A stretch of 64,000 bases of DNA, from contig CAMDUB010000007.1 of NCBI GenBank assembly GCA_945878575.1, positions 1-64,000 of the forward strand, in the 5' to 3' direction. The translations under genes were made by a program, and so were the position numbers. This document shows positions 379 through 14,117 of the stretch, piece by piece (positions within the stretch are counted from its first letter, which is position 1; each line of letters begins with the position of its first letter). Below the pieces are notes generated by a model. That model had not been told where the DNA came from, ran no database searches, and saw only the letters and a program-made list of their open reading frames with translations. The stretch comes from Phycisphaera mikurensis NBRC 102666. GTDB taxonomy: Bacteria; Planctomycetota; Phycisphaerae; Phycisphaerales; SM1A02.

Positions 379-1293
379 TTACTTCGCAGACACAAACTGA
401 AATTGGATTTGCTGCGGTACGCACGCGTGCCACCACGAATGAACGTGCGCGGGCCTTTCCGCTGGCAATTCAACGATTCGCGCCCGCATGACGACGGGCA
501 GTGGATCAATATCAAACGGATACGGATTCAGTTCAATTCTTCGATCACCTCGCGGGGTGACTGTGATTGTGCAGCGATCCATCCACCTGCGGCGAGGAAC
601 ATCGTGCAGTTCATAGGAATCATCACCAAGACCTTTAGAAGCGCCAGTTTTTGAAGGGATCAAGGCAGAACATAGCCCAAGCGAAATTCCATCACACAAC
701 TGAATCAGTCTCTGCAGCGGCGCGAGACTTGCGGGCTCAACCCACGATGCCGTTTCAGGATCTGCGCGAAGTTCTTCGATCCATCCAAGTTGCTTCTCCT
801 GCAACTCAGCCATAAATGCCAGTAGCGCTTCATTGCTCTCAGGACAGAGTTTTTCAGGCGCGCCCTTCCAGAAGAGCGGATGATTGAATGCAGGTTCTGG
901 AGTTTGAAGTGCACGCGCGGCATAGAACAAATACGCATGAGAACTGATGAGAAGATTCACAAACGGTCGGCGTGGAAATCTTGTGAGTCCCCTTCGCCAC
1001 CGATCGATTCCTGCTTGTTGATTCTGCAGTGCTTCGCCAAGACCTGCTGGGAAACCATCTGCCACAGAAAGCTCAGGAATCGCCTCCCACTCCCACCAAC
1101 CATTGTCATGCTCGGCGATAGCAAGAATCACTTCTGCGCGAAGTCGCTCAGGATCCGCGACGGTTTCTGCAGAAAAAAAACCTGGGCGAGTGAAGAGCGT
1201 GTTTCCCCAGTGTGCTGCAATAAATCCAGCGATCTGGCTGTGATCAGGCTGAGTGACCATCCAAAGCTTGCCATCTTGATTTGTCTTCAGCAA
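379..1293 (-). CDS. DUF3891 family protein in the purine operon
   Basis: The 304-residue product matches what I know of DUF3891: an N-terminal WMVTQPDHSQIAGFIAAHWGN segment and, near residue 60, AEHDNGWWEWE, with conserved His, Asp and Trp that could bind a metal. The family has no established function that I know of. The chosen start is a TTG at 1293, with an AAGG about six bases upstream; an ATG at 1260 is the alternative but would cut into the conserved N-terminus. It follows xdhC by 27 bases on the same strand, so it is probably the last gene of the xanthine dehydrogenase operon. A role in purine breakdown is inferred from position only. The C-terminal 100 residues look less conserved. 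Confidence 0.8.
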   Translation of the reverse strand: MLKTNQDGKLWMVTQPDHSQIAGFIAAHWGNTLFTRPGFFSAETVADPERLRAEVILAIAEHDNGWWEWEAIPELSVADGFPAGLGEALQNQQAGIDRWRRGLTRFPRRPFVNLLISSHAYLFYAARALQTPEPAFNHPLFWKGAPEKLCPESNEALLAFMAELQEKQLGWIEELRADPETASWVEPASLAPLQRLIQLCDGISLGLCSALIPSKTGASKGLGDDSYELHDVPRRRWMDRCTITVTPRGDRRIELNPYPFDIDPLPVVMRARIVELPAERPAHVHSWWHACVPQQIQFQFVSAK

Positions 1294-1320: not shown

Positions 1321-2142
1321 TCAAAGGACACATTTCCTGATCACGTCACGTTCCTGCAAGAGTTGTGCGGCGATGCTGACTGCGATTTCCGGCGGGGAGT
1401 TTGATCCAATTGGCAGGCCAATCGGGCAATGAATTCGCTCAACCATCAATTCGTCGAATCCCTCTTTGAGAAGAGTGCTTCGCAGCGTTCGTGACTTTGG
1501 CTCGCTGCCGATGACGCCGATGAATGCGGCGTCACCTCGTCGGAGAATTTCGCGCACGATCGGTAAGTCGGTTGCATGACCTTGCGACATGCAAAGATAA
1601 AATGTTCCTGCAGGCAACTTAGAAACAAACTCCGCAGGTTCTGCGACAAGCACCTTGCACATGTTGGGCTGCGAGGCAATTTTCGCCAGCCAGTCATCGC
1701 GTGGATCAATGCAGGTCAAACTGCACTCGAATGTGCAAAGAAGCAAAAGTGTCGCTTGCGCAACATGCCCCGCACCGAAGAGTGCGATATTCCAATTCGG
1801 CAGCGCAGAGATTTCATAAAACAAAGTTGCAGCTCCGCCACAAACCATGTTCAAATCGCGCAGAAGTTCATATCGAACAATCTCCGGCTGAACCGTAGCA
1901 GCAGGAATTGCGCCCGCAAGCTGCCGAGCGATCATCGCTTGCCCATGGGTGATTGCGCGAGCCTCAAGCCGACCGCCGCCGACAGTTCCCCATGCAAGTC
2001 CACTCGCAGTGACAATCGCTTTCGCCCCAATATCTTGCGGAACGTGCCCTTCAGGCTCAACAAGTGTGACGGTAACAAAGACTGTGCCTCGCTCGGCGAG
2101 TGCACTTGCCTGATGAAGATATTCACGCATCGAATAACTCAT
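1321..2142 (-). CDS. xdhC: XdhC-type molybdenum cofactor sulfuration/insertion chaperone
   Basis: XdhC proteins bind the molybdenum cofactor, promote its sulfuration and deliver it to xanthine dehydrogenase. The 273-residue product shows the N-terminal XdhC domain (VTLVEPEGHVPQDIGAKAIV, then WGTVGGGRLEA) and the C-terminal Rossmann-like domain (NIALFGAGHVAQATLLLL, and FIGVIGSEPKSRTLRSTL with a following IHCPIGLPIGSNSPPEIAVS). The start is the ATG at 2142, preceded by GGGAGC; the longer open frame upstream is noncoding-looking and overlaps xdhB. It lies 16 bases after the xdhB stop, in the order xdhA-xdhB-xdhC, which is a common arrangement. Confidence 0.93.
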   Translation of the reverse strand: MSYSMREYLHQASALAERGTVFVTVTLVEPEGHVPQDIGAKAIVTASGLAWGTVGGGRLEARAITHGQAMIARQLAGAIPAATVQPEIVRYELLRDLNMVCGGAATLFYEISALPNWNIALFGAGHVAQATLLLLCTFECSLTCIDPRDDWLAKIASQPNMCKVLVAEPAEFVSKLPAGTFYLCMSQGHATDLPIVREILRRGDAAFIGVIGSEPKSRTLRSTLLKEGFDELMVERIHCPIGLPIGSNSPPEIAVSIAAQLLQERDVIRKCVL

Positions 2143-2158
2143 TGTGAGCTCCCGATTG

Positions 2159-4651
2159 TCAATGGACAGCACTTGCTTCTTGCGTATCCCAGATGGCGAA
2201 TGATTCTGGTGAGAGTCCGCGCAACACGCGCTCTGCGGTTGCTGGAATGGCCAGCGGGACAAGGTGCACGTTTTCTGTTTTTGAATGATTGCGCGCCGAC
2301 ATGATCGCATCGCGCACCGCGGTCCACACTGAGAGCGATAGAAGCAGCGGCGGCTCGCCCGAAGCCTTCGAGCCACGCACATTCACCGTATTTCCATGGT
2401 TAAAGATCAGGTCCGCATTGAAGACACGCGGGGTGTCCTGCACGTTCGGAATCTTGTACGTGCTGGGTGAATGGGAAAGCAACTTGCCATTGTCGTCATA
2501 CACCAAGTGTTCCGTCGTCACCCAACCCATGCCTTGCACGAAGCCACCCATCACCTGCCCCATGTCAAGCGCGTGGTTCACCGGCCGACCCATGTCCATC
2601 AGAATGTCGACGCGCCGCACCTTGACCTCGCCGGTATGCCGATCAAGCTCCACCTCACTCGCGGCAACGCCCTGCGTGAAATACAAGAATGCTTTGCCCT
2701 TACCAGTGAGCTTGTCGAATCCCAAATCAGGGATGCGGTAATGCGCGTATTCGCTCACGGAAATTCGATTGAGATACGCCTCGCGTACAAGTGCTGCGAA
2801 GCCCACGGAGAACACTGATCCAGAGCGATCCGTCACCGTCACCACGCCGTCGCTGAACTCCACGCGCTGCTCATCGGTCCCACGTGGACTGACTTCTGAT
2901 CCCACCGTGATTTCCGGCATGGTTCCAAGAGCGGCGGTCTTTCCCGCCCACGATTCCTGCGGAATTGATCGCAGGCGAATGGCGAGCGCAGATAGGCGCC
3001 CGCGAATCGTCTCGCATGCCTGAAGCGCAGCAGCACCATTGATATCGGTGCCCGCCGACGCAGCGGTCGGCGATGTGTTCGCGTTCTTCTCCGTCGATGT
3101 TGGCATCATCCGCACTGACTCGGTCGGCAGCCCAAACTGCTCAGCAACGATTGCCGCAATGCGCGTATTCACGCCCTGCCCCATCTCAACTGCGCCGGTT
3201 GAGACCTGCACAGTTCCATCGCGATGAAGATTGACGAGTGCGTTGCCTTGGTTCAAAAATCGCGTGGTGAACGAAATGCCAAACTTAACCGCCGTCAGCG
3301 AAAGTCCACGCGGATGCCCGTCCGGATTGCGCGCCCGATCACCGTTCCACGCTGCAATTTCCGCGCGGCGCGCGCGGTATGCGCATCGTTCCGTGAGCGT
3401 TGCGAACAGCTCCGGCAAGTGGTTGTCCTCAACGCGCTGCCCATAGGGCGTCATGTCTTGGCCAGGCCCGTAGCAATTCAATATGCGAACATCAAGCGCG
3501 TCACGACCAACAACGCGTGCGATGTCCTCAATGACGGACTCAATGAGCGCAACGCCCTTGGGGCCACCGAAGCCGCGAAATGCAGTGTGTGGATGGAAAT
3601 TGGTGCGACACACCTGCCCGCGCACACGCATATTCGGAATGAAATACGCGTTGTCGCAGTGCAACATGGCGCGTTCCATGATCGCCGTGGAAAGATCGGC
3701 ATACGCACCGCCGTCGGCATGCAACATTGCGTCCATCGCAATGATTCGACCGTCCACATCGAAGCCGCACTGATACTCAATCCGGAAAGGATTTCGCTTC
3801 CCAGTGATGATCATGTCGTCGTCCTTGGAAAGAACGAGACGCGCCGCGCGGCCAGTCTGCTTCGCCACCAATGCGGCATACGCGGCAATAGGAGCCGCCT
3901 GCGATTCCTTGCCCCCAAATGCGCCGCCCAAGCGCTTGGCAATGCACACCACATCGCTGAAGCGCACGCCGCACGCTTCTGCAACCACGTGTTGCGTCTC
4001 AGTGGGATGCTGCGTCGAGGAATGCACTTCGAGCTGCCCGTCCTCGCGCGGATACACCACTGCCGCTTGGCTCTCAAGATAGAAGTGATCAGCGCCACCG
4101 ATCTCTAGCGTTCCCGCAATGCGGTGAGGCGACCGCGCCAGCCCTGCCGCTGCGTCACCAGTTGCGATCGTGCGTTCCGATCCGATGAAACTCTTCGCCG
4201 CCACCGCTTCTGCCACGCTGCGAATGGCAGGCAATTTTTCCCATTCCACTACAACTGCAGCCAAACCCTTCGCGAGCGCTTCCTTGGTCTCTGCACCCAG
4301 CACGGCCACCACTTCGCCAACGAAGTTCACCTCGGATGCTGCAATGATCGGCTGATCTTGAAAGATGGTGCCCCAAACGTTGTGCGCCACATCAGCGGCG
4401 GTCACAGCACACACAACGCCAGGAATAGCGAGCGCGGGCGCGGTTTCGAGGCGGCGCACTCGCGCGCGCGCGTATGGGCTGTACACCAGCCCGCAGTGCA
4501 GTTCGCCCTTTAGCATCGGGCGGTCATCGATGTATTCCGATTTTCCCGTGACATGGGTCGTAGACGAATCATGCGGCACCGATCCCTGATCAGTAATGAT
4601 CGCAGCGAGCCGAGTAGGAGTACTGGTGTGCTCAGCCACGGAGCACCTCAT
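2159..4651 (-). CDS. xdhB: Xanthine dehydrogenase, molybdopterin-binding subunit
   Basis: This is the large catalytic subunit that oxidises hypoxanthine to xanthine and urate. Key segments, numbered from the ATG at 4651: GGAFGGKES near 243-250, whose Glu249 matches the purine-binding Glu802 of the bovine enzyme; AFRGFGGPKG near 357-366, whose Arg359 matches bovine Arg880; and GSKASGEPPL near 760-769, whose Glu766 matches the catalytic Glu1261. All three support purine rather than aldehyde oxidation. The length (about 830) is slightly above the usual 770-780. The gene overlaps the end of xdhA. A GTG at 4639, with GAGGTG just upstream, is an equally plausible start and would give an 8-base overlap. 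Confidence 0.95.
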   Translation of the reverse strand: MRCSVAEHTSTPTRLAAIITDQGSVPHDSSTTHVTGKSEYIDDRPMLKGELHCGLVYSPYARARVRRLETAPALAIPGVVCAVTAADVAHNVWGTIFQDQPIIAASEVNFVGEVVAVLGAETKEALAKGLAAVVVEWEKLPAIRSVAEAVAAKSFIGSERTIATGDAAAGLARSPHRIAGTLEIGGADHFYLESQAAVVYPREDGQLEVHSSTQHPTETQHVVAEACGVRFSDVVCIAKRLGGAFGGKESQAAPIAAYAALVAKQTGRAARLVLSKDDDMIITGKRNPFRIEYQCGFDVDGRIIAMDAMLHADGGAYADLSTAIMERAMLHCDNAYFIPNMRVRGQVCRTNFHPHTAFRGFGGPKGVALIESVIEDIARVVGRDALDVRILNCYGPGQDMTPYGQRVEDNHLPELFATLTERCAYRARRAEIAAWNGDRARNPDGHPRGLSLTAVKFGISFTTRFLNQGNALVNLHRDGTVQVSTGAVEMGQGVNTRIAAIVAEQFGLPTESVRMMPTSTEKNANTSPTAASAGTDINGAAALQACETIRGRLSALAIRLRSIPQESWAGKTAALGTMPEITVGSEVSPRGTDEQRVEFSDGVVTVTDRSGSVFSVGFAALVREAYLNRISVSEYAHYRIPDLGFDKLTGKGKAFLYFTQGVAASEVELDRHTGEVKVRRVDILMDMGRPVNHALDMGQVMGGFVQGMGWVTTEHLVYDDNGKLLSHSPSTYKIPNVQDTPRVFNADLIFNHGNTVNVRGSKASGEPPLLLSLSVWTAVRDAIMSARNHSKTENVHLVPLAIPATAERVLRGLSPESFAIWDTQEASAVH

Positions 4652-6107
4652 TGCCAAAGCGTCGGAAGATATATGCAGCAGTCACGCGTCGGTATGCACC
4701 ACTGCCGCGAACATCAGAGATCGGCGCAATTGATCCAGCGATCAGGTGCGCTACTGATTCAATGCGCTCAGTCGTGAGTTCGCCGCACAGGGCCTGCTCT
4801 GCGTCTGGCATCCGGACAGGCGTCGCTGCAACTCCGCCGTAAGCGATCCGCGCGGATGTCACACACGGCGCCGATTTCCCGCGACGCCCAGTGCCGAGCG
4901 TGACCGCAAATGCCCCGCTGACTGCGCTGATATCGAGATCCTTGCGCTGCGAAACCTTGCAGAGTCGCAGCACCTCGCGCGATGGCGTCCGCTGAAATGA
5001 CACGTGAGTAATGATCTCGCCCGGCTCGAGCGCCAGTTGTTTATACCCAAGATACAACTCAGTCATTGCAATCGATCGCTTGCGAATCGGCCCCTTGCCA
5101 CCCGGCCGCCCGGCGACATGGACTGTGCCGCCTGCAATCAGAAGAAACGGCAGCGTGTCTCCAATCGGCGACGCGTTCGCGATGTTGCCGACCAGTGTCG
5201 CAACATTCTTAATCTGCGGCGACGCAAAGAGGTTCAGGAACTGCGCAAACTCCGGGGCAACGTCCTCGCTCACGCGGCGCACCTCTGCAAGCGTCACGCG
5301 CGCGCCGAAAGTCGCGCCAGCGCGACTCACTTTCGTTGCATAGAGCTCGGGTACAAGATGCAAACTCAGAAGCGCCGCAGGCATCGGCTTGCCCTTATTG
5401 ATCTGCACACCAAGGTCCGTAGCCGCACCAATCACCCGGAATCCCGGATGGAGCGCAGCAAAGGTGACTGCCTCGCGCAGCGTTGCTGGCGCAAACAATT
5501 CCACGCCGTCATGGCTCACTCGCATCGACTGCTCTGTTGCTGTAATCGATTCGGCAACTGCGTTCATATCTGAATATCGAAGGGCCACGGAATGTTGCTC
5601 AGTAGCGCGCACGGTGAGTGCCGCCTGAATGATCGGCGCATATCCAGTGCAGCGGCATAAATTCCCGGTGAGATAGTTCATTGCCATCCGCTCATCGGCC
5701 TGCGCATGCTTCTCCAACATGCCGCTCAACGCCATCACGAAACCGGGTGTGCAGTAGCCACACTGCGATGCGTGACATACGCGCATGGCATGTTGCGCTG
5801 GCGACAATTCATTACCGCGCTGCATGCCTTCCACTGTGACGATGTGCGCGCCATCCATCTGCGCCACGGTCGCAATACAAGAATTCATTGCCTCATACTC
5901 AAACGCTGCCCCTGCGACGAAGGCTGCGCCCGGTCGCGGGAACGCACGCAACACCGTGCACGCGCCACAGTCCCCTTCCGCACACACAATCTTCGTGCCA
6001 GACAGGCCGGCTTCCTTGCGCAACCACTCCGCGAGCATCATCAAGGCCTCACGACCTCGTATCTCACGGCGCACGCCATTCACATGGAGAAGTGCATAAT
6101 CACGCAT
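4632..6107 (-). CDS. xdhA: Xanthine dehydrogenase, FAD and iron-sulfur subunit
   Basis: The 491-residue product carries electrons from the molybdenum site through two [2Fe-2S] clusters to FAD. The plant-type ferredoxin domain has CAEGDCGACTVL at 42-53; the second cluster domain has CHASQCGYCTPGFVM and NLCRCTGYAPI. The FAD domain follows with VIGAATDLGVQINKG and ATLVGNIANASPIGDTLP, and the CO dehydrogenase flavoprotein C-terminal domain ends the protein. Fusion of both halves in one chain is the usual bacterial XdhA layout. The ATG at 6107 is preferred; a GTG two codons upstream (6113) is possible. It starts 36 bases after the giant fusion gene and overlaps xdhB, so the three are probably one transcript. 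Confidence 0.95.
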   Translation of the reverse strand: MRDYALLHVNGVRREIRGREALMMLAEWLRKEAGLSGTKIVCAEGDCGACTVLRAFPRPGAAFVAGAAFEYEAMNSCIATVAQMDGAHIVTVEGMQRGNELSPAQHAMRVCHASQCGYCTPGFVMALSGMLEKHAQADERMAMNYLTGNLCRCTGYAPIIQAALTVRATEQHSVALRYSDMNAVAESITATEQSMRVSHDGVELFAPATLREAVTFAALHPGFRVIGAATDLGVQINKGKPMPAALLSLHLVPELYATKVSRAGATFGARVTLAEVRRVSEDVAPEFAQFLNLFASPQIKNVATLVGNIANASPIGDTLPFLLIAGGTVHVAGRPGGKGPIRKRSIAMTELYLGYKQLALEPGEIITHVSFQRTPSREVLRLCKVSQRKDLDISAVSGAFAVTLGTGRRGKSAPCVTSARIAYGGVAATPVRMPDAEQALCGELTTERIESVAHLIAGSIAPISDVRGSGAYRRVTAAYIFRRFGNEVLRG

Positions 6108-6142
6108 TGACACGATCGTAGCACCCGCAGCACGCGCGCTAC

Positions 6143-9100
6143 TCAGGGCGCCGCGAACACCCGCACCCGGTTCATTCCACCATCAGGAAACACGATCACC
6201 CGAATCTGCTCACACGGGCCGACTCTGCCCACTTGGAAGGCGATGATGTTGCCAGCAAACGCCTTGACCTCCGTGAGCGCAACCAATGGCACCCACTCCG
6301 TGCCACATAGGCCGTCGATCGCAACCTCGCGCGGATTGTTGTTGACGAAATGACTAAAATCCAACTCAATTCGACCGATCTTTGCCGGTTGCCCAAGCCT
6401 GATCACCACATTCTCCGAGTGTCCCGGCTCACGACTTCGCGCCGACTCGAGCCCGTCCACCATGCTGAGCGGCGGATACGGAGAGATGACTTGCGTGGCT
6501 GGCGAGTAGTGCTCATTGGAAGCAGAAACCACCTGACCACCGAAGGCCGCGCTTGCGAGATCCGCCAACCCACTACCGACCCGGGCAATGCTGGCGGCCA
6601 CCTCCGCAGCGGTCGTGGTGTATCTCGGCGTCATCGGCTTCTTCGTTTGCGGATCAAACGCATGCCAAGCGCGGATCGCGGGTGAAAGCATGCGCTCCTT
6701 CTCAGCCACAGGAAGCTCATTCCCATACAGCGCGAGACGAGTGACGCCCCCATCGGGGTACATGCGCACGCGGATCCGCTGAAACTGAGCAACACCCGAA
6801 ATGGACTCCACCGCGTGGGCGCCGTGTCCAAAGAGTTGCATAGGCGCCACAATCGCCTGCCACTCCCCGCGCGCTGCATCCCAACCGTCGATCTCCAGTT
6901 TCTCGGCATGATTTCCAAGATGGAACTGCGTCGAAACCGCAACACAACTCACCGCTGCAGGACGTTGCAATTCAAAGATCATCCAATCAAACGGTTCCGG
7001 ATTGTGGCGAACCGTCTCCCAACTATCCATGATCTTTCCCTGACGCCCAAAAAGCTTGGGATCGAAAGTAGGCAGATACGGCGACAGTAAATTCTCCGCG
7101 CGCGCAAATCGCTGGTTTGAAACCGCTTCGACACGTGCGCCGACTACATGATTGAAGGTGGCGAGCGGATCACGCGGCCCGTGCGCATCGATCTCCTCGG
7201 GCAGATCCGCTGCAAACGCTGCGAACACCAATTCTCGGTAGCCCGCGTTGACACGCTGTTCCGGTGGAATACCGCCGAATGCCAAATCACTCCGAAATTG
7301 GCTCGTATCTACGCCGCGCATTCCCATGTGCCGCAGAATGATCTGCGCGGCCTCTGCAACGAACAACATGCCCGCGTGCTCCCCATTGCACAACACCACG
7401 AAGCCGTTCCCTGCGTCTGGACCCGCGTAACAATGGACGAACAGCGCGCGGAATCCGTCATTCGCACCCTGATGTATCGCCAGACGATTCGGTCCCGCTT
7501 CGGCCGTGAAGATGCCAAGACCCATGTTGCATCCCATAAATTCACGACATCCCCTATCGGATCCATGCAACATCCGCACCGCCGTCTCATGAGAAATCAG
7601 TCCGCATCCATTGATGCTCTGATGCGCGTTACTCAGTGCCATAAGGAACCGCGCGACGTCAGCGGCTGACGCCACTGCCCCAGCAGCGATTGCGGGAAAC
7701 ACCTTGCGCGTACCTACTACTGGTTCTCCAGAATCAAGAAATCCAGTCGCGCACTCCAAGCCAACCAGTTCATCTTCACAGAACGTACATTCGTCCATTC
7801 CGAGCTCGCGCAAGAATGCATCGATCTGAACATGAACGGGTGCGCCTCCCATACACTCGATGAGGTGCTGAAGTACCAGGAATCCACCGCCCGAATATTG
7901 AAACCGCGTTCCCGGCGCATTCACAACGCCCACTGGCTCGTACCCATGTCGCTCGTTACCGTTCAGGAGCTCAAAGATCGGCGGAAATGCCTCGTTTGCA
8001 GGCACGCCATTCACATAATGCATGTTCAAGCCCTGGTGCGACATGAGGTGCGCCACCGTGACTTGATCCGCCCATTCTGGATGCGCTGCGTCGAGAGACG
8101 GGACTCGAAACTTCGAACCAGCCTTGGAAAGGAGCGCGTTCACGCTCGCAGAAATTGGAACGCCCGCCTTGCGAAATTGCTCCATCACGAAGCACGTACC
8201 GATGCTCTTACTGAGCGACGCGATCTCAAATCCTGTCTGCGGAGTGACTGCATGGAGCGCATTACGATTCCCAAACTGCAACGATTGCAGATGATTCACC
8301 GGGGAAGCGACACACACCGATGCACCCTTCACCCCGTGCCGCGCAAGCGCAGCGGTGATCTCATCAAACACTGTATCCACCGGCTGCGCGAGCAATCGAC
8401 CCTTTGTGATCTGCCAAAGCGCTTCGCGCGCATGCCCAAGCTCCACTTCATGCGAATGCTCGATCCGAGTTCGCAGCGCCTCCAGCAGTTCTGTCCCAGT
8501 ACGCCCCTTGGCAGCCACCAAAAACTTGAAACCAAACCGCTCTCGATATCGGCTGCCGAGGCCGCGAAGTTCCTGTGCAACTTCGGCGGTGCCTCCTAAG
8601 ACCTTCGCCTGCTCCTGCGCCGCCGTCGCGTCGAGCGTCCGAGCAGCCTCGCCAATATCACCGTGAAAGTGCGCTGCCTCATTGATCTCATGAATATCAA
8701 AGCTGCGCACCAACTGCTCGGCCTTGCCAAGATCCAACACCGGATCGAGCGCCATTTGCTCGGCAAATCGCCGACTTCCACACGCCGAGAAGAACGCATG
8801 TAGTCGCGCCAACCGCTTCGGAATCGCATACTTCGTAGGCTCGATCGCCTGCAGCGCTGCCCACGGATCCTCCTGCGTTCGGATCGCATCAAGCGTGAAC
8901 GGCAGCAACAGCTCAGTAGCGAATTCAACTGGCGACTCGCTGCCCATCAGCTGCAACATCAGATTCATAGCAACCGGATACCACTTCCGCGTGCGATCGT
9001 CCCACTTCACCTGGACGATCTTGCGCTGGTCCGAAAGATCCTTCCGAATGAAATGCATTTCCTCATGTGCAATGCGCATGAAATCGGCACACGAGAAGCG

Positions 9101-10969
9101 TCCGTGCTGCAGTTCGTGCCAAACTTCCCAACGCGATCGCTCCGCGGTTGCCAAGTCATCCATGACCCGCACCGGCACACCATCGATATTCGCCGGGAGC
9201 GCGACGCAACCATTGCCGCTCAACCAGTCGGTGAGGTACTGCAGCGCTTGGAAGACGTTGTAACGAATCTCTTCCGGATCATTGTTAGCAACGAAACCCG
9301 CCGTATTTCGATCCGCCACAAGCAACGAACGCGGATACAACGGATTGTCCCGATCAAGGCCGCGCACATCTGAACCATGAATGAAGTCCAGCACCTCGCG
9401 GTGGTGCTCCGGCACGAGAAGCGCGGTGACAAGCGAGTCCAACGCTGCTCCGTCGCCCTTCTGCGAGCGCTTCCACGCCTCCACCAGCGCCAACCCAAGG
9501 CGGACAAAGTCCGGATGCGCTACCCAGAATCCCGAGAGATCACGCTTCATCTGCGTGATGACATCCTTGATGAATCCCTTGATGGCTACTTGAAATGATG
9601 CGCCACGAATATCGCCGTCGGCAGGAAGAACACCGTACATACCGCCAACTTTGATGCCGCCACGCGAACCAACCACCTGCGCAAGAAGATCGTGGGAGGC
9701 CTTGATGTAATTGATCACAATGCCCGGATCCGCCTTCACGGGAATCCGATAGTTGCCGTCATTCTTCATCAGCCGCGCCGTCGACGCAAGAAAGTCATGC
9801 CACCCGAGCGACGCGCCAGCGAAGTACGGATCCAGCGCATCCATGATCTCATTGACACGGAACATCGCGCGTGGATTCTCCAACACAATGAGTAAACGAA
9901 TGGTGCCGATTCGATACTCGGGATGCTGCGCCGCAATCAACCGCTCCGCACGCTCAAGCATGACGCGAATGTACGCAGCCTCCTCTTCCGTCTCTAACTT
10001 CGGAACATAGAAGGCCAATGCCTGCGGATTGTTCCAGTTGGCGAAGAGGTGCAATGCAAAGTCGTAGAGATGCAGCGGCAGCGGATTACCGTGCAGGAAT
10101 AGAAATGGGCACGGCAATGCCAAACCCGGAAACCGCTTGATCGGTACGGATCGATGCGACGCGGCCAGCCGGTACTCCTTGCCAGAGCGCGGATCGTCAT
10201 AGGAAATCGTGCCCTGCAAACAGCCAGTCAGATTCTCCCCAGCCAATACCAGATCACCGCGCAGTGGCGTCTTGGAATCCTCGTCGTCGGCGCCCCACTT
10301 GGCGGAACCTGAAAAATCCTTCAGTAATTCTGCCACGATCCCTGGCTCGCCAGGAAGCGTTCGATGAAATGCATTCATCGCATTGATGGAAAGTTTCGCA
10401 TCATCCGGCGGACCAAACAGTGTCACATGACTTCCCTGCAAGAACTCCGGAATCGGTGCGATCGGCGCCCCACTTCCAGCGCGGCAATAGAAACTATTGC
10501 GCGGCCCAATCACCACACGACCGTCAATATCTTCCTGACCAATCACTGTGCGATAGGCCGGATCGCCATATCCCACTTGAAGCTTCGCGTTCAACTCAAA
10601 GCACGCGCGAGTGCGTTGATCAATAAACGCTCGATCCGTCACCCGCTGTCGTAACACGGACGCTAAGTCCAGCTTTACCGCGTGGTACAGGTCGCAAAGA
10701 AAGTGCAGGGATTCCCGGCTTTCAAGCCCACCAATAGTGCCCAACTGCAATAAACCATCAACCCCCGGCACCGGAATCAGCTGCGAACGCAGGTGATCGA
10801 TCAACTCCGCGGAGATGTAGTCACGGTACGAGGGAATCTCAGCGGTGTGCGCACCTTCTCGTCCAGTCATCACCGCACGATACCTCTGCCACCACCGCCT
10901 TCTTGGCACAATCCGTTTATGTTGCGAGCAGTTTGCTCCAATCTCCCTCATCAACGTTGACCCACACAT
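6143..10969 (-). CDS. Giant purine-catabolic fusion: malate synthase-like + OHCU decarboxylase + serine hydrolase + allantoicase
   Basis: One uninterrupted 1608-residue frame. Residues about 45-720 resemble malate synthase: PKLETEEEAAYIR at 323, VLENPRAMFRVNEI with Glu364, GWHDF with Asp392, RGGIKVGGM at 436, and the C-terminal MDDLATAERSR with the catalytic-Asp equivalent Asp605; the usual RPRG arginine motif is not seen verbatim. Residues about 720-860 resemble OHCU decarboxylase (HFHGDIGEA at 767, AAQEQ at 783, YRERFGFKFLV at 808). Residues about 865-1225 are a class C beta-lactamase/esterase-type hydrolase (SLSK 918-921, YSG 1025-1027, HQG 1166-1168). Residues about 1265-1608 are two allantoicase repeats (MDSWETVRHNPEPFDW at 1314; MVDGLESARSREPGH at 1503; YPDGG and FPDGG ends). 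The start at 10969 has AAAGGAG five bases upstream; the ATG at 10870 is an alternative because the first 33 residues look unconserved. Confidence 0.88.
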   Translation of the reverse strand: MCGSTLMREIGANCSQHKRIVPRRRWWQRYRAVMTGREGAHTAEIPSYRDYISAELIDHLRSQLIPVPGVDGLLQLGTIGGLESRESLHFLCDLYHAVKLDLASVLRQRVTDRAFIDQRTRACFELNAKLQVGYGDPAYRTVIGQEDIDGRVVIGPRNSFYCRAGSGAPIAPIPEFLQGSHVTLFGPPDDAKLSINAMNAFHRTLPGEPGIVAELLKDFSGSAKWGADDEDSKTPLRGDLVLAGENLTGCLQGTISYDDPRSGKEYRLAASHRSVPIKRFPGLALPCPFLFLHGNPLPLHLYDFALHLFANWNNPQALAFYVPKLETEEEAAYIRVMLERAERLIAAQHPEYRIGTIRLLIVLENPRAMFRVNEIMDALDPYFAGASLGWHDFLASTARLMKNDGNYRIPVKADPGIVINYIKASHDLLAQVVGSRGGIKVGGMYGVLPADGDIRGASFQVAIKGFIKDVITQMKRDLSGFWVAHPDFVRLGLALVEAWKRSQKGDGAALDSLVTALLVPEHHREVLDFIHGSDVRGLDRDNPLYPRSLLVADRNTAGFVANNDPEEIRYNVFQALQYLTDWLSGNGCVALPANIDGVPVRVMDDLATAERSRWEVWHELQHGRFSCADFMRIAHEEMHFIRKDLSDQRKIVQVKWDDRTRKWYPVAMNLMLQLMGSESPVEFATELLLPFTLDAIRTQEDPWAALQAIEPTKYAIPKRLARLHAFFSACGSRRFAEQMALDPVLDLGKAEQLVRSFDIHEINEAAHFHGDIGEAARTLDATAAQEQAKVLGGTAEVAQELRGLGSRYRERFGFKFLVAAKGRTGTELLEALRTRIEHSHEVELGHAREALWQITKGRLLAQPVDTVFDEITAALARHGVKGASVCVASPVNHLQSLQFGNRNALHAVTPQTGFEIASLSKSIGTCFVMEQFRKAGVPISASVNALLSKAGSKFRVPSLDAAHPEWADQVTVAHLMSHQGLNMHYVNGVPANEAFPPIFELLNGNERHGYEPVGVVNAPGTRFQYSGGGFLVLQHLIECMGGAPVHVQIDAFLRELGMDECTFCEDELVGLECATGFLDSGEPVVGTRKVFPAIAAGAVASAADVARFLMALSNAHQSINGCGLISHETAVRMLHGSDRGCREFMGCNMGLGIFTAEAGPNRLAIHQGANDGFRALFVHCYAGPDAGNGFVVLCNGEHAGMLFVAEAAQIILRHMGMRGVDTSQFRSDLAFGGIPPEQRVNAGYRELVFAAFAADLPEEIDAHGPRDPLATFNHVVGARVEAVSNQRFARAENLLSPYLPTFDPKLFGRQGKIMDSWETVRHNPEPFDWMIFELQRPAAVSCVAVSTQFHLGNHAEKLEIDGWDAARGEWQAIVAPMQLFGHGAHAVESISGVAQFQRIRVRMYPDGGVTRLALYGNELPVAEKERMLSPAIRAWHAFDPQTKKPMTPRYTTTAAEVAASIARVGSGLADLASAAFGGQVVSASNEHYSPATQVISPYPPLSMVDGLESARSREPGHSENVVIRLGQPAKIGRIELDFSHFVNNNPREVAIDGLCGTEWVPLVALTEVKAFAGNIIAFQVGRVGPCEQIRVIVFPDGGMNRVRVFAAP

Positions 10970-10991: not shown

Positions 10992-11342
10992 GTGACCCAT
11001 CCTGCTGAACTCGGCCTCTCAACGCATGTTCTCGACACTTCCACCGGGCGACCAGCACCGGGAGTCCATCTTGAACTGCACGCCCTGCATGGGGGCACTT
11101 GGAAGCAGGTGCATACCACTCATACCGATGCCGACGGCCGCGCCCAGGGACTGAGTAAGGGTCCGCTGGAAGCCGGTGACTATCGCCTGCAATTCGACAC
11201 TTGCTCATGGTTTGCAAAGCAGGGCATTGAGTGCTTCTTTCCATCCGTCACCATTGAGTTCCGCGTCAGTGACACGCAACGCCATCACCATGTTCCGCTT
11301 CTCTTGAGCCCGTTCGGATACTCCACTTATCGAGGCAGTTAA
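10992..11342 (+). CDS. 5-hydroxyisourate hydrolase (transthyretin-like)
   Basis: The enzyme opens 5-hydroxyisourate, the urate oxidase product, to OHCU. The 116-residue product has the family hallmarks: GLSTHVLDTSTGRPAPGV near the N-terminus with the active-site His, FPSVTIEFRV in the middle, a HHHVPLLLSPFGYSTY segment, and the diagnostic C-terminal YRGS. The length is typical. The start is a GTG and no ribosome binding site is visible ahead of it. It precedes urate oxidase by two bases and diverges from the fusion protein that holds the next enzyme, OHCU decarboxylase. Periplasmic versions carry a signal peptide; this one does not, so it is cytoplasmic. Confidence 0.95.
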   Translation: MTHPAELGLSTHVLDTSTGRPAPGVHLELHALHGGTWKQVHTTHTDADGRAQGLSKGPLEAGDYRLQFDTCSWFAKQGIECFFPSVTIEFRVSDTQRHHHVPLLLSPFGYSTYRGS

Positions 11343-11344
11343 CT

Positions 11345-12256
11345 ATGACCATCATTCTTGGTGAAAATCGTTATGGCAAAGCAGAGAACCGGGTCTTCCG
11401 CGTCACTCGCCACGGCGACACCCATGAAATATTGGATCTCAATGTCTCAGTCCAACTCAGTGGTGACTTCGCCGCCACTCACCTCACGGGCGACAACCGC
11501 AATGTGCTGCCAACCGATACGCAAAAGAACACCGTCTTTGCGCTGTCGCATCTGCACGGCGCCATGGAGCCTGAAGCGTTCGGCCTTGTTCTTGCACGCC
11601 ACTTCTTGAGCAATCACCCGCACATTTTAGCGGTCGAAGTTCGGCTCGAAAAGTTTGACTGGGATCGAATCGTCTGTAACGGGACCCCACATCCGCATGC
11701 ATTCCGCCGCAATGGTTCGCTGATCCGCACTGCCACGGTGCTTGCGTCGCGCACCACCACCGGAGTGCGAGAATTGGTGGTTTCCGGATTGAAGGACTTA
11801 ACAGTTCTGAAGACCACTGGCAGTGAATTCAAGGGGTACCTACGCGATCAATTCACCACGCTTGCTGAAACAACCGACCGCATCATGGCCACACAGATCT
11901 GCGCGCGCTGGCATGCCACCGCCACTGACGCCGCCACTCTTGACCGTGTCGATTGGCTCAAGCAGTACAACGACGCTTTGCACACACTGCTCACTACATT
12001 TGCTGAGCATCACAGTCTCTCCCTTCAACAAACGCTCTACGCCATGGGCGAACGCGCACTCTCCGTGTTACCCGCTATCGCAGCAATCAAACTCTCACTG
12101 CCAAACAAACATCACTTTGCTGTTGACCTCTCCGGATGTGGTCAAGAGAACTGCAACGAAGTATTCATCGCTGCCGACCGCCCCTATGGTTTGATTGAAG
12201 CAGTCATCCAACGGGACAACGCGCCGTCTGTGACTGAACTCTGGCCGTCATGGTGA
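11345..12256 (+). CDS. Urate oxidase (cofactor-free uricase)
   Basis: Oxidises urate to 5-hydroxyisourate. The 303-residue length fits the family. Visible signatures are YGKAENRVFRV near residue 10, whose Lys is the general base partner; VLPTDTQKNTVFAL near 54-67, which holds the catalytic Thr; a second tunnel-fold repeat with PHAFRRNGSLIRTA and GLKDLTVLKTTGSEF; and NKHHFAVDL near 254-262, with the Asn/His of the active site. It starts two bases after hiuH stops and is surely cotranscribed. With xanthine dehydrogenase and the fusion protein it forms a continuous urate pathway. No terminator is visible in the 98 bases that separate it from the convergent hydrolase gene. Confidence 0.95.
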   Translation: MTIILGENRYGKAENRVFRVTRHGDTHEILDLNVSVQLSGDFAATHLTGDNRNVLPTDTQKNTVFALSHLHGAMEPEAFGLVLARHFLSNHPHILAVEVRLEKFDWDRIVCNGTPHPHAFRRNGSLIRTATVLASRTTTGVRELVVSGLKDLTVLKTTGSEFKGYLRDQFTTLAETTDRIMATQICARWHATATDAATLDRVDWLKQYNDALHTLLTTFAEHHSLSLQQTLYAMGERALSVLPAIAAIKLSLPNKHHFAVDLSGCGQENCNEVFIAADRPYGLIEAVIQRDNAPSVTELWPSW

Positions 12257-12354: not shown

Positions 12355-13962
12355 TCAGAGCGTCCAGTGCGCCAGCAGCGCACCAAGATCGGCGCCGCCG
12401 ACAACGCCGTCACCAGTGAGGTCAGCGGCGCAGCCAGTACAGGGACCCCAACTGCTCAGAAGCGCGCCAAGATCGGCGCCATTGACCCTGCAATCGCCGT
12501 TCAGGTCGCCCGGCTGGTTCAGCGCGGTGATGGCGATGTCGTCGAGTTCGACCGTCGATCCCACGGCATTCCCCGCGCCATCGATAAAGATGCGCACGCG
12601 GCTCGTCCGCCCACGGAACTCGGCGGGAATCAACACGCTCACCGTCTGGAACACCGAGGTGAGCCCCGCGACATCCCACGCCGCCGACTCCAGAGTGACG
12701 GGCTCGACGTCGTTGTGCCCTTGGAGCGAGACGCGCAGCACGTCGTCCGTCGCGCCTGTCCCGATCCGGCGGACCTTCATAGACAACTGCGCGCACTGTG
12801 CCGGGAGATACGCTCGGTTGTGCACTAACTGCGGCGCTGCGGCCGCGAGTCGCGCCACCCAGTTGCCCCCACCGAGGCTCACGATGTTCGAGGGCATACC
12901 GCCGTGCGCGGTCCAACCAGCCTGCGTGCCTTGCTCGAACGCCCCGTTGAAGACCACCGGCGCGGAGTCGGAGGGTGGGGCGCTTCCTGCGGGGATCGCG
13001 GGACGCTCGGCGGCGCCTCCACCGAGGATCGAGAAGTGGTAGCCGGTCTGCAGCCAGCCGTTCGGCCACCACGTCGACCGAGCATTGTTGGAGATCACCT
13101 GCTCGCCGTCGCTTGGATTCGGCGCTCGGTCGATCGTGCCGTGATACCAAAGGTGGACGTCGAGATGGGCGAAGGAGTTCGCGCAGCAGTTGAGGGCGCT
13201 CTCGCTGAGGACGACGCCATTGACGTTTGGCAGCGGGATTCCGTCGAAATCGAGGCCATTGATCAGTCCGCCGCCGTCAGCGCGCCACATGTTGTCCGCC
13301 CACGCGACGTTGCTCCAGCGCACCGGCGTCGGATCGCCCCAGTTGGGGTTGTACGGAGCATCGAGCGTGCCGTCGACCGGATGCGAATCGAGCGTGGTCA
13401 TTTGGTCCACCTCTATGCCAGCCAAGGCGAGCCGACGGATCGCCTCGCTGATGACGCTTGCGCCGCGGCTGTGACCAATGAAGTGCACCGCTCGATTGCC
13501 CAGAAGATCAACGGGCCCCACAGAGCCGACTTCGTAGCTTGGATCGCGAAGCATGGCACTAAGCACATCCCCCGCCGCCTGCGTGTAACGCCAGTTCGGG
13601 CCGGTGACCGACGCCGACTCCGGCACCCAATTGAAGATCAGCACGACGTTCTGATCGGAGCCGTCTCCGCCCGCCTCGGGCACCTTCGACCAAACGCCCG
13701 TGTCGCCGGTGTAGCGATACACGGTGCCGATGCCGCCGCCGCGCTCGATGATCGCGCTGGCCATGCTCTCGACCCAGATGCCCTTACTTCCTGACGAGTA
13801 TCCGTGGGTAATGACCGTCGTTGTCGGTTGACCGCCGAACGCGGCCGCGCTGCTCGACGTCGCTAGCGAAGTCAACGTGGCGAAGCACACCGTCATCCAC
13901 GTCATCGGACTGCGGAACCAAGTCAATCCACTGTCAACAGGAGAGCCCATGCCAAAAAGCAT
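12355..13962 (-). CDS. Secreted alpha/beta hydrolase (lipase-like) with C-terminal dockerin-like repeat pair
   Basis: About 535 residues. A hydrophobic N-terminal segment (MTVCFATLTSLATSSSAAA) looks like a signal peptide. The hydrolase domain follows: TVITHGYSSGSKG (oxyanion region), FIGHSRGASV (nucleophile elbow, G-H-S-R-G), an LDSHPVDGT segment and a later HLDVHLWYH that may supply the His. A beta-sandwich-like region (VFNGAFEQGTQAGWT to STVELDDIAI) resembles carbohydrate-binding modules. The C-terminus has two Ca-binding-like repeats, GDLNGDCRVNGADLGALL and ADLTGDGVVGGADLGALL, the dockerin-like anchor common in Phycisphaerae. By eye the gene is more GC-rich than its neighbours. The start is uncertain (13962, 13950 or 13905). 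The substrate is unknown. Confidence 0.78.
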   Translation of the reverse strand: MLFGMGSPVDSGLTWFRSPMTWMTVCFATLTSLATSSSAAAFGGQPTTTVITHGYSSGSKGIWVESMASAIIERGGGIGTVYRYTGDTGVWSKVPEAGGDGSDQNVVLIFNWVPESASVTGPNWRYTQAAGDVLSAMLRDPSYEVGSVGPVDLLGNRAVHFIGHSRGASVISEAIRRLALAGIEVDQMTTLDSHPVDGTLDAPYNPNWGDPTPVRWSNVAWADNMWRADGGGLINGLDFDGIPLPNVNGVVLSESALNCCANSFAHLDVHLWYHGTIDRAPNPSDGEQVISNNARSTWWPNGWLQTGYHFSILGGGAAERPAIPAGSAPPSDSAPVVFNGAFEQGTQAGWTAHGGMPSNIVSLGGGNWVARLAAAAPQLVHNRAYLPAQCAQLSMKVRRIGTGATDDVLRVSLQGHNDVEPVTLESAAWDVAGLTSVFQTVSVLIPAEFRGRTSRVRIFIDGAGNAVGSTVELDDIAITALNQPGDLNGDCRVNGADLGALLSSWGPCTGCAADLTGDGVVGGADLGALLAHWTL

Positions 13963-14117
13963 AGCAATGCGATACCAAAACACGAATAGTTGGCCTCACT
14001 GCGCCACATGGCCGACTTGCGCCTTTGCAGCGGAGCGTGTTCACCCACCCTCCCCTCGGCGGCCTTCGTATGAGGGGATATGCGTCCGGTACACGAACGT
14101 CCCAATGGGCAGCAGAC

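Follow-up and report, generated by a model that had tools for sequence, protein, structure and literature searches.

Which enzyme opens allantoin in this locus, where genes of uric acid breakdown lie together without a recognisable allantoinase? The window, a 64,000-nucleotide stretch of DNA from Phycisphaera mikurensis NBRC 102666, carries a purine-catabolic cluster with a fusion ORF that sits between the XdhA, XdhB and XdhC genes on the minus strand and the 5-hydroxyisourate hydrolase (HIUase) and uricase genes on the plus strand. An earlier note on this DNA had proposed that a class C serine hydrolase domain of the fusion (hereafter SH), placed between the OHCU decarboxylase and allantoicase domains, is the missing allantoinase. 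The features on which the analysis rests are as follows.

1321..2382, minus strand: XdhC accessory protein (profile matches)
2159..4657, minus strand: xanthine dehydrogenase molybdopterin-binding subunit, XdhB (profile matches)
4632..6113, minus strand: xanthine dehydrogenase small subunit, XdhA (profile matches)
6143..10969, minus strand: fusion ORF, 1608 aa, with malate-synthase-like, OHCU decarboxylase, class C serine hydrolase (SH) and allantoicase domains
8828..10882, minus strand: malate-synthase-like domain, residues 30-714 (Pfam and alignment to E. coli malate synthase A)
8390..8812, minus strand: OHCU decarboxylase domain, residues 720-860 (Pfam and conserved residues)
7265..8386, minus strand: SH domain, residues ~862-1235, the proposed allantoinase (Pfam, conservation and fold)
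8207..8218, minus strand: SLSK motif with nucleophile Ser918 and Lys921 (S and K invariant, 66/66 covering sequences)
7889..7897, minus strand: YSG motif, Tyr1025 (Y in 65/67; F only in L239 and L241)
7466..7474, minus strand: HQG motif, His1166, equivalent of KTG (H in 69/69)
6155..7141, minus strand: allantoicase domain, two repeats, residues 1277-1605 (Pfam)
10992..11342, plus strand: HIUase (TIGR02962, 134 bits, cut-off 87.45)
11345..12256, plus strand: cofactor-free urate oxidase (TIGR03383, 326 bits, cut-off 168.4)

Two further genes border the cluster. A DUF3891 gene (379-1293, minus strand), present also at L041 and L044 and possibly purine-related in role, ends the xanthine dehydrogenase genes, and a 542-aa frame without a Pfam match (12355-13983, minus strand) adjoins the uricase gene; partly similar sequences lie near the fusion loci L049 and L050.

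The fusion is one 4.8-kb frame with a stop-free translation, and the protein probably begins further downstream than the first ATG, since for many relatives the alignment starts no earlier than about residue 24-48. Its N-terminal part matches the malate synthase TIM-barrel and C-terminal domains over cut-off (PF01274 and PF20659; MS_TIM-barrel at 283-493, MS_C at 566-685) and, aligned to E. coli malate synthase A (3cuz), keeps the Glu of VLENPRA and the Asp residues of LGWHDF and MDDLATAE, which we take to be the catalytic acidic metal/base residues. With the acidic positions kept but a score far below the malate synthase A equivalog cut-off (TIGR01344, 132.9 bits, cut-off 594.5, not met), the exact reaction of this domain remains open. 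The OHCU domain (OHCU_decarbox, 749-859) reaches 78.4 bits against PF09349 (cut-off 24) but only 72.5 bits against the TIGR03180 equivalog model (cut-off 139.4), and the His of its HGDIG and the Glu of its EQ are invariant in 58 sequences. Likewise, the two PF03561 repeats of the allantoicase domain (E-value 7.2e-53) align over both repeats to yeast allantoicase 1sg3, with a score below the TIGR02961 cut-off (197.5 of 277.9). As a separate observation, in the predicted model m345da9d37eaf (residues ~560-892) the allantoicase repeats as a pair could not be superposed on yeast allantoicase (Foldseek, rmsd ~20 A); in this model their arrangement may differ from that in yeast or be swapped between chains.

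Between these two domains, SH scores 79.4 bits against the Beta-lactamase family PF00144 (cut-off 27; residues 871-1209, E-value 3.8e-22) and carries the motifs SxxK, Y-x-[N/G] and [KH]-x-G in the order that this family requires (S918LSK, Y1025SG, H1166QG). Pfam and the motif positions confirm the earlier description of a class C hydrolase with SLSK, YSG and HQG motifs between the OHCU decarboxylase and allantoicase domains, and the span it gave, 7294-8377, corresponds to residues 865-1225 within one base. That the domain order equals the pathway order holds only in part, since the malate-synthase-like domain stands first, at the N terminus. A second HQG, at residue 978, is not the catalytic motif.

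We assessed conservation in an alignment of 70 proteins, counting a residue only where a sequence covers the site. Pairwise dN/dS of SH among close relatives is ~0.08-0.20, within the range of the other fusion domains, and on these ratios SH is judged to be under purifying selection like its partner domains. Furthermore, domain distances across the fusions correlate (r 0.76-0.86; SH versus partners 0.84-0.86), as would be expected of a unit inherited together. The SH structure predicted by AF2 (pLDDT 86.5) matches class C fold enzymes in the PDB with Z of about 29-33, including the IS11 esterase, D-amino acid amidase, LACTB, R61 DD-peptidase and ClbP, and the OHCU-SH-allantoicase block is predicted as a single confident unit (pLDDT 91.4, pTM 0.90). 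Elsewhere in the taxonomic class, SH has paralogues of 27-31% identity, which were set aside; the three contexts examined lie outside purine clusters.

The four-domain protein is widespread. Within the family of the window (181 genomes), a search with SH found the fusion in 21, as long open frames of 1337-1724 aa, some of them cut by contig ends, with SH identities of 45-94%. A profile scan of a species-genome collection returned 66 loci, in 65 of which SH is joined to partner domains (19 Planctomycetota, 46 others); over the two phyla SH identity is 32-94%. The 46 other loci are mostly labelled Bacteriovoracaceae, Bdellovibrionales or Oligoflexia and belong mostly to Bdellovibrionota, although titles of metagenome bins are unreliable: the “Lysobacteraceae” locus L162 (G578) shares its phylum with a Bdellovibrionota genome. 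Three loci (L153, L157, L169) are split into two frames and several reach contig edges; where the contig permits, the fusions mostly lie beside purine genes. The scan patterns were derived from SH itself, and distant stand-alone SH proteins may have been missed. A frameshift or chimera artefact can be ruled out, because the same four-domain frame recurs in 21 family genomes and more than 40 further loci. We also note that in the Bdellovibrionota fusion loci (L121-L170, for example L121 3835-5205) a PuuD-type membrane urate oxidase adjoins HIUase, whereas the planctomycete loci have a cofactor-free uricase.

We then asked whether a known allantoinase accompanies the fusion, using the AllB model TIGR03178 (cut-off 357.85 bits) and the PuuE model TIGR03212, which still bears the name uraD_N-term-dom; PuuE occurs fused to OHCU decarboxylase as well. 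The fusion protein itself matches neither PF01979 nor either of these two models. AllB over cut-off was found in 0/21 fusion genomes of the window's family and 0/39 other fusion genomes (0/60), and there was no PuuE match in the 21 family genomes or in the other fusion genomes tested. The earlier note had seen no allantoinase and had suggested checking the rest of the genome: its view holds for the window and for the 2.79 Mb of its genome sequence (85.8% complete), which contain no AllB over cut-off and no PuuE match, and extending the check to 59 other fusion genomes, several of them 95-98% complete, uncovered none over the AllB or PuuE cut-offs. Nor was an alternative allantoinase found among the conserved neighbours of the fusion; unmatched neighbours shared by four loci read as amino-acid biosynthesis genes.

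The candidates in the window genome are adenine deaminase, dihydropyrimidinase and other amidohydrolases, together with polysaccharide deacetylases, and all of them score below the cut-offs for AllB and PuuE. AllB-model matches of 240-284 bits do occur in fusion genomes, and those scanned are dihydropyrimidinase (TIGR02033, 526-614 bits, cut-off 393.25) or dihydroorotase (686 bits). The check covers these amidohydrolases in part: two from Planctomycetota and two others are dihydropyrimidinases and one is a dihydroorotase, and a 207-bit AllB-model match at L184 in G579 was left without assignment.

The picture is different where the allantoicase is not fused. In the sister family, stand-alone allantoicase occurs in five genomes, with an adjacent AllB in 4/5 (499-524 bits). 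In Bdellovibrionota, 96/368 genomes have an allantoicase; frame length and score mark it as stand-alone in 27, and in 22/27 the adjoining gene is AllB, with 547-577 bits in the four that were scanned. A common unfused gene order is PuuD, AllB, allantoicase, OHCU decarboxylase, HIUase, DUF6986. Like the fusion locus, these unfused operons of Bdellovibrionota and the sister planctomycete family hold the AllB, allantoicase, OHCU decarboxylase, HIUase and DUF6986 function set; they differ in having separate genes, AllB for SH, and DUF6986 for the malate-synthase-like domain. In gene content, operon and fusion locus match function for function with AllB in the place of SH, and we infer that two functionally matching gene sets alternate, differing in SH versus AllB. 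A Fisher test of AllB in unfused versus fusion genomes gave p = 1.6e-17 with phylogeny ignored; it is only a guide, as the genomes are related and the two sets were scored differently (over cut-off genome-wide versus adjacent by BLAST).

The exceptions count against an allantoinase role of SH: 5/27 Bdellovibrionota (G906, G671, G890, G680, G681) have no adjacent AllB and 1/5 sister-family genomes has no AllB over cut-off, at least one of these cases (G906) lying at a contig edge. At L236 (G671) and L243 (G890) a stand-alone allantoicase has PuuD nearby and no AllB within the stretch examined. The sister-family genome without AllB over cut-off is G221 (L097, L106, L248, G221:C6), whose nearest amidohydrolase (L106) sits with genes resembling pyrimidine catabolism. 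DUF6986 (PF22484), which has weak similarity to the malate-synthase barrel, is a steady member of the unfused Bdellovibrionota allantoin operons (L218-L246, for example L222 9587-10942) and likely has a glyoxylate-using role; the open-access literature searched makes no mention of it.

One Bdellovibrionota lineage departs from the four-domain plan. In G679-G681 (L239, L241, L242), SH is joined to allantoicase only, no OHCU domain was found, and G679 and G680 encode the malate-synthase-like protein separately. Where covered, SH of this lineage has Phe for Tyr1025 and HHA for HQG, so that it either has lost its activity or works differently, and G680 and G681 additionally carry a stand-alone allantoicase. 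Since this joining alone is kept, SH and allantoicase are, on domain architecture, the tightest pair. The arrangement is seen for instance at L239 (4746-7034 and 8939-11122), and a class V aminotransferase is a further separate gene in this lineage.

Collectively, we put at roughly 0.8 the probability that SH is a non-homologous, serine-nucleophile allantoinase within a four-domain purine-catabolic enzyme; the support is comparative and the activity is unmeasured. What is observed is the architecture, its conservation in two phyla, the intact catalytic residues, and the presence of SH in place of AllB in gene sets that are equivalent in other respects. We hypothesize that the OHCU domain would make (S)-allantoin and deliver it to SH, where Ser918, aided by Lys921 and Tyr1025, would attack the C4 carbonyl of the hydantoin ring; opening of the N3-C4 bond would leave a diureidoacetyl-Ser918 ester, from which water would release allantoate to the allantoicase domain. 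The latter, adjoining SH, would split allantoate into urea and ureidoglycolate, and the glyoxylate formed subsequently would be used by the malate-synthase-like domain. Such chemistry would need no metal, unlike that of AllB. Serine-based opening of allantoin is plausible because some enzymes of the class C fold, among them DD-peptidases and D-amino acid amidase, split unactivated amides. Against it stands that no class C fold enzyme opening hydantoins is known to us.

Could SH instead act one step later, releasing glyoxylate from ureidoglycolate (or ureidoglycine) by hydrolysis or as a lyase, with allantoin opened by something else? The ureidoglycolate step is also without an enzyme, the known ureidoglycolate lyase AllA (PF04115) being found in 0/21 fusion genomes, and SH adjoins allantoicase, the producer of ureidoglycolate, to which it is still fused in the G680 lineage. 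PF04115 is, however, absent from all 29 genomes searched, which include, besides the 21, the five sister-family controls, in which allantoicase is stand-alone and of which four have AllB; because AllB-bearing genomes do without PF04115 too, SH is not needed to explain the missing lyase, whereas the absence of AllB and PuuE is specific to fusion genomes. We regard a later step as unlikely. Still less probable, in our view, is that SH is accessory and allantoin is opened by dihydropyrimidinase (HydA), a cyclic amidohydrolase related to AllB that some fusion genomes possess (594.5 and 526 bits in Planctomycetota, 593 and 614 in two others) and that could act on allantoin. In the window genome, HydA is the amidohydrolase closest to AllB (594.5 bits to the dihydropyrimidinase model, cut-off 393.25), but it lies on a different contig from the purine cluster, and its neighbours, judged by eye and not scanned, read as PreA and PreT (dihydropyrimidine dehydrogenase), beta-ureidopropionase, an aminotransferase and an NCS1 permease, suggesting that it belongs to a reductive pyrimidine breakdown operon. 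Many fusion genomes (e.g. G388, G398, G308 and most Bdellovibrionota) have only dihydroorotase-level matches, and the SH active site is intact in fusion genomes with and without HydA.

The closest structural neighbours of SH are esterases, peptidases and beta-lactamases, and its Pfam, sequence and fold matches (beta-lactamases, DD-peptidases, LACTB, esterases) would also suit an ordinary hydrolase of this fold fused by chance. We consider this very improbable: SH lies mid-protein among cytosolic metabolic enzymes with no export route of its own, and the fusion has retained it across two phyla (32-94% identity), its domain distances following those of the partner domains. An Ambler class C beta-lactamase in particular was rejected, the KTG and YAN of those exported proteins being HQG and YSG in this internal domain of a metabolic protein. 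There is very little, finally, to recommend a catalytically unimportant SH that merely scaffolds OHCU decarboxylase and allantoicase. The three domains do pack confidently in the predicted structure and the G680 lineage, having lost the catalytic Tyr, keeps SH-allantoicase, an observation that also weighs against an allantoinase role; yet no sequence that covers Ser918, Lys921 or His1166 departs from these residues, and the dN/dS of SH is like that of the surrounding enzymes.

The allantoinase reading of the earlier note is thus supported comparatively, by the absence of AllB and PuuE, the presence of AllB in the slot of SH in relatives of two phyla, and the retention of the catalytic residues, while activity on allantoin has not been shown. 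In the open-access literature searched, two allantoinase folds are described, AllB (PMC9863593) and PuuE (PMC10967932). AllB shares with SH the predicted reaction and the operon place beside allantoicase, OHCU decarboxylase, HIUase and a malate-synthase-superfamily protein, but it has a binuclear metal centre with a carbamylated lysine (PMC9863593), whereas SH, a serine hydrolase, has a different fold and is unrelated to it in sequence. PuuE, of the NodB / polysaccharide-deacetylase fold, is a precedent for a non-homologous, non-metal-dependent allantoinase (PMC10967932, citing Ramazzina 2008). It differs from SH in its fold and in using no serine acyl-enzyme. The class C fold serine hydrolases (PF00144) resemble SH in fold (Z 29.8-33.1) and in their SxxK / YxG / HxG motifs, as in the IS11 esterase 7spn, R61 DD-peptidase 1hvb, D-amino acid amidase 2drw, LACTB 7v21 and the Pab87-type 2qmi; they differ in substrates, at 17-21% identity, and SH is an internal domain of a metabolic fusion. 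Open-access text yielded nothing relevant on an allantoinase of the serine hydrolase type, on a protein joining allantoicase to malate synthase, or on the allantoicase of Bdellovibrio; an earlier description in subscription papers is not excluded.

Taken together, it seems likely, by inference from comparison alone, that SH is a third evolutionarily independent allantoinase, in which a serine acyl-enzyme on a class C beta-lactamase fold opens the hydantoin, and that a single polypeptide serves the OHCU-to-glyoxylate end of urate breakdown in Planctomycetota and Bdellovibrionota. If true, this would provide a metal-free scaffold testable for hydantoin chemistry and would prevent the mis-annotation of the fusion proteins as beta-lactamases. 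An activity so far known from two folds would gain a class with a new mechanism, the allantoinase gap in a urate pathway that occurs in both phyla would be filled, and a beta-lactamase-fold enzyme would prove to have been turned to cytosolic purine catabolism.
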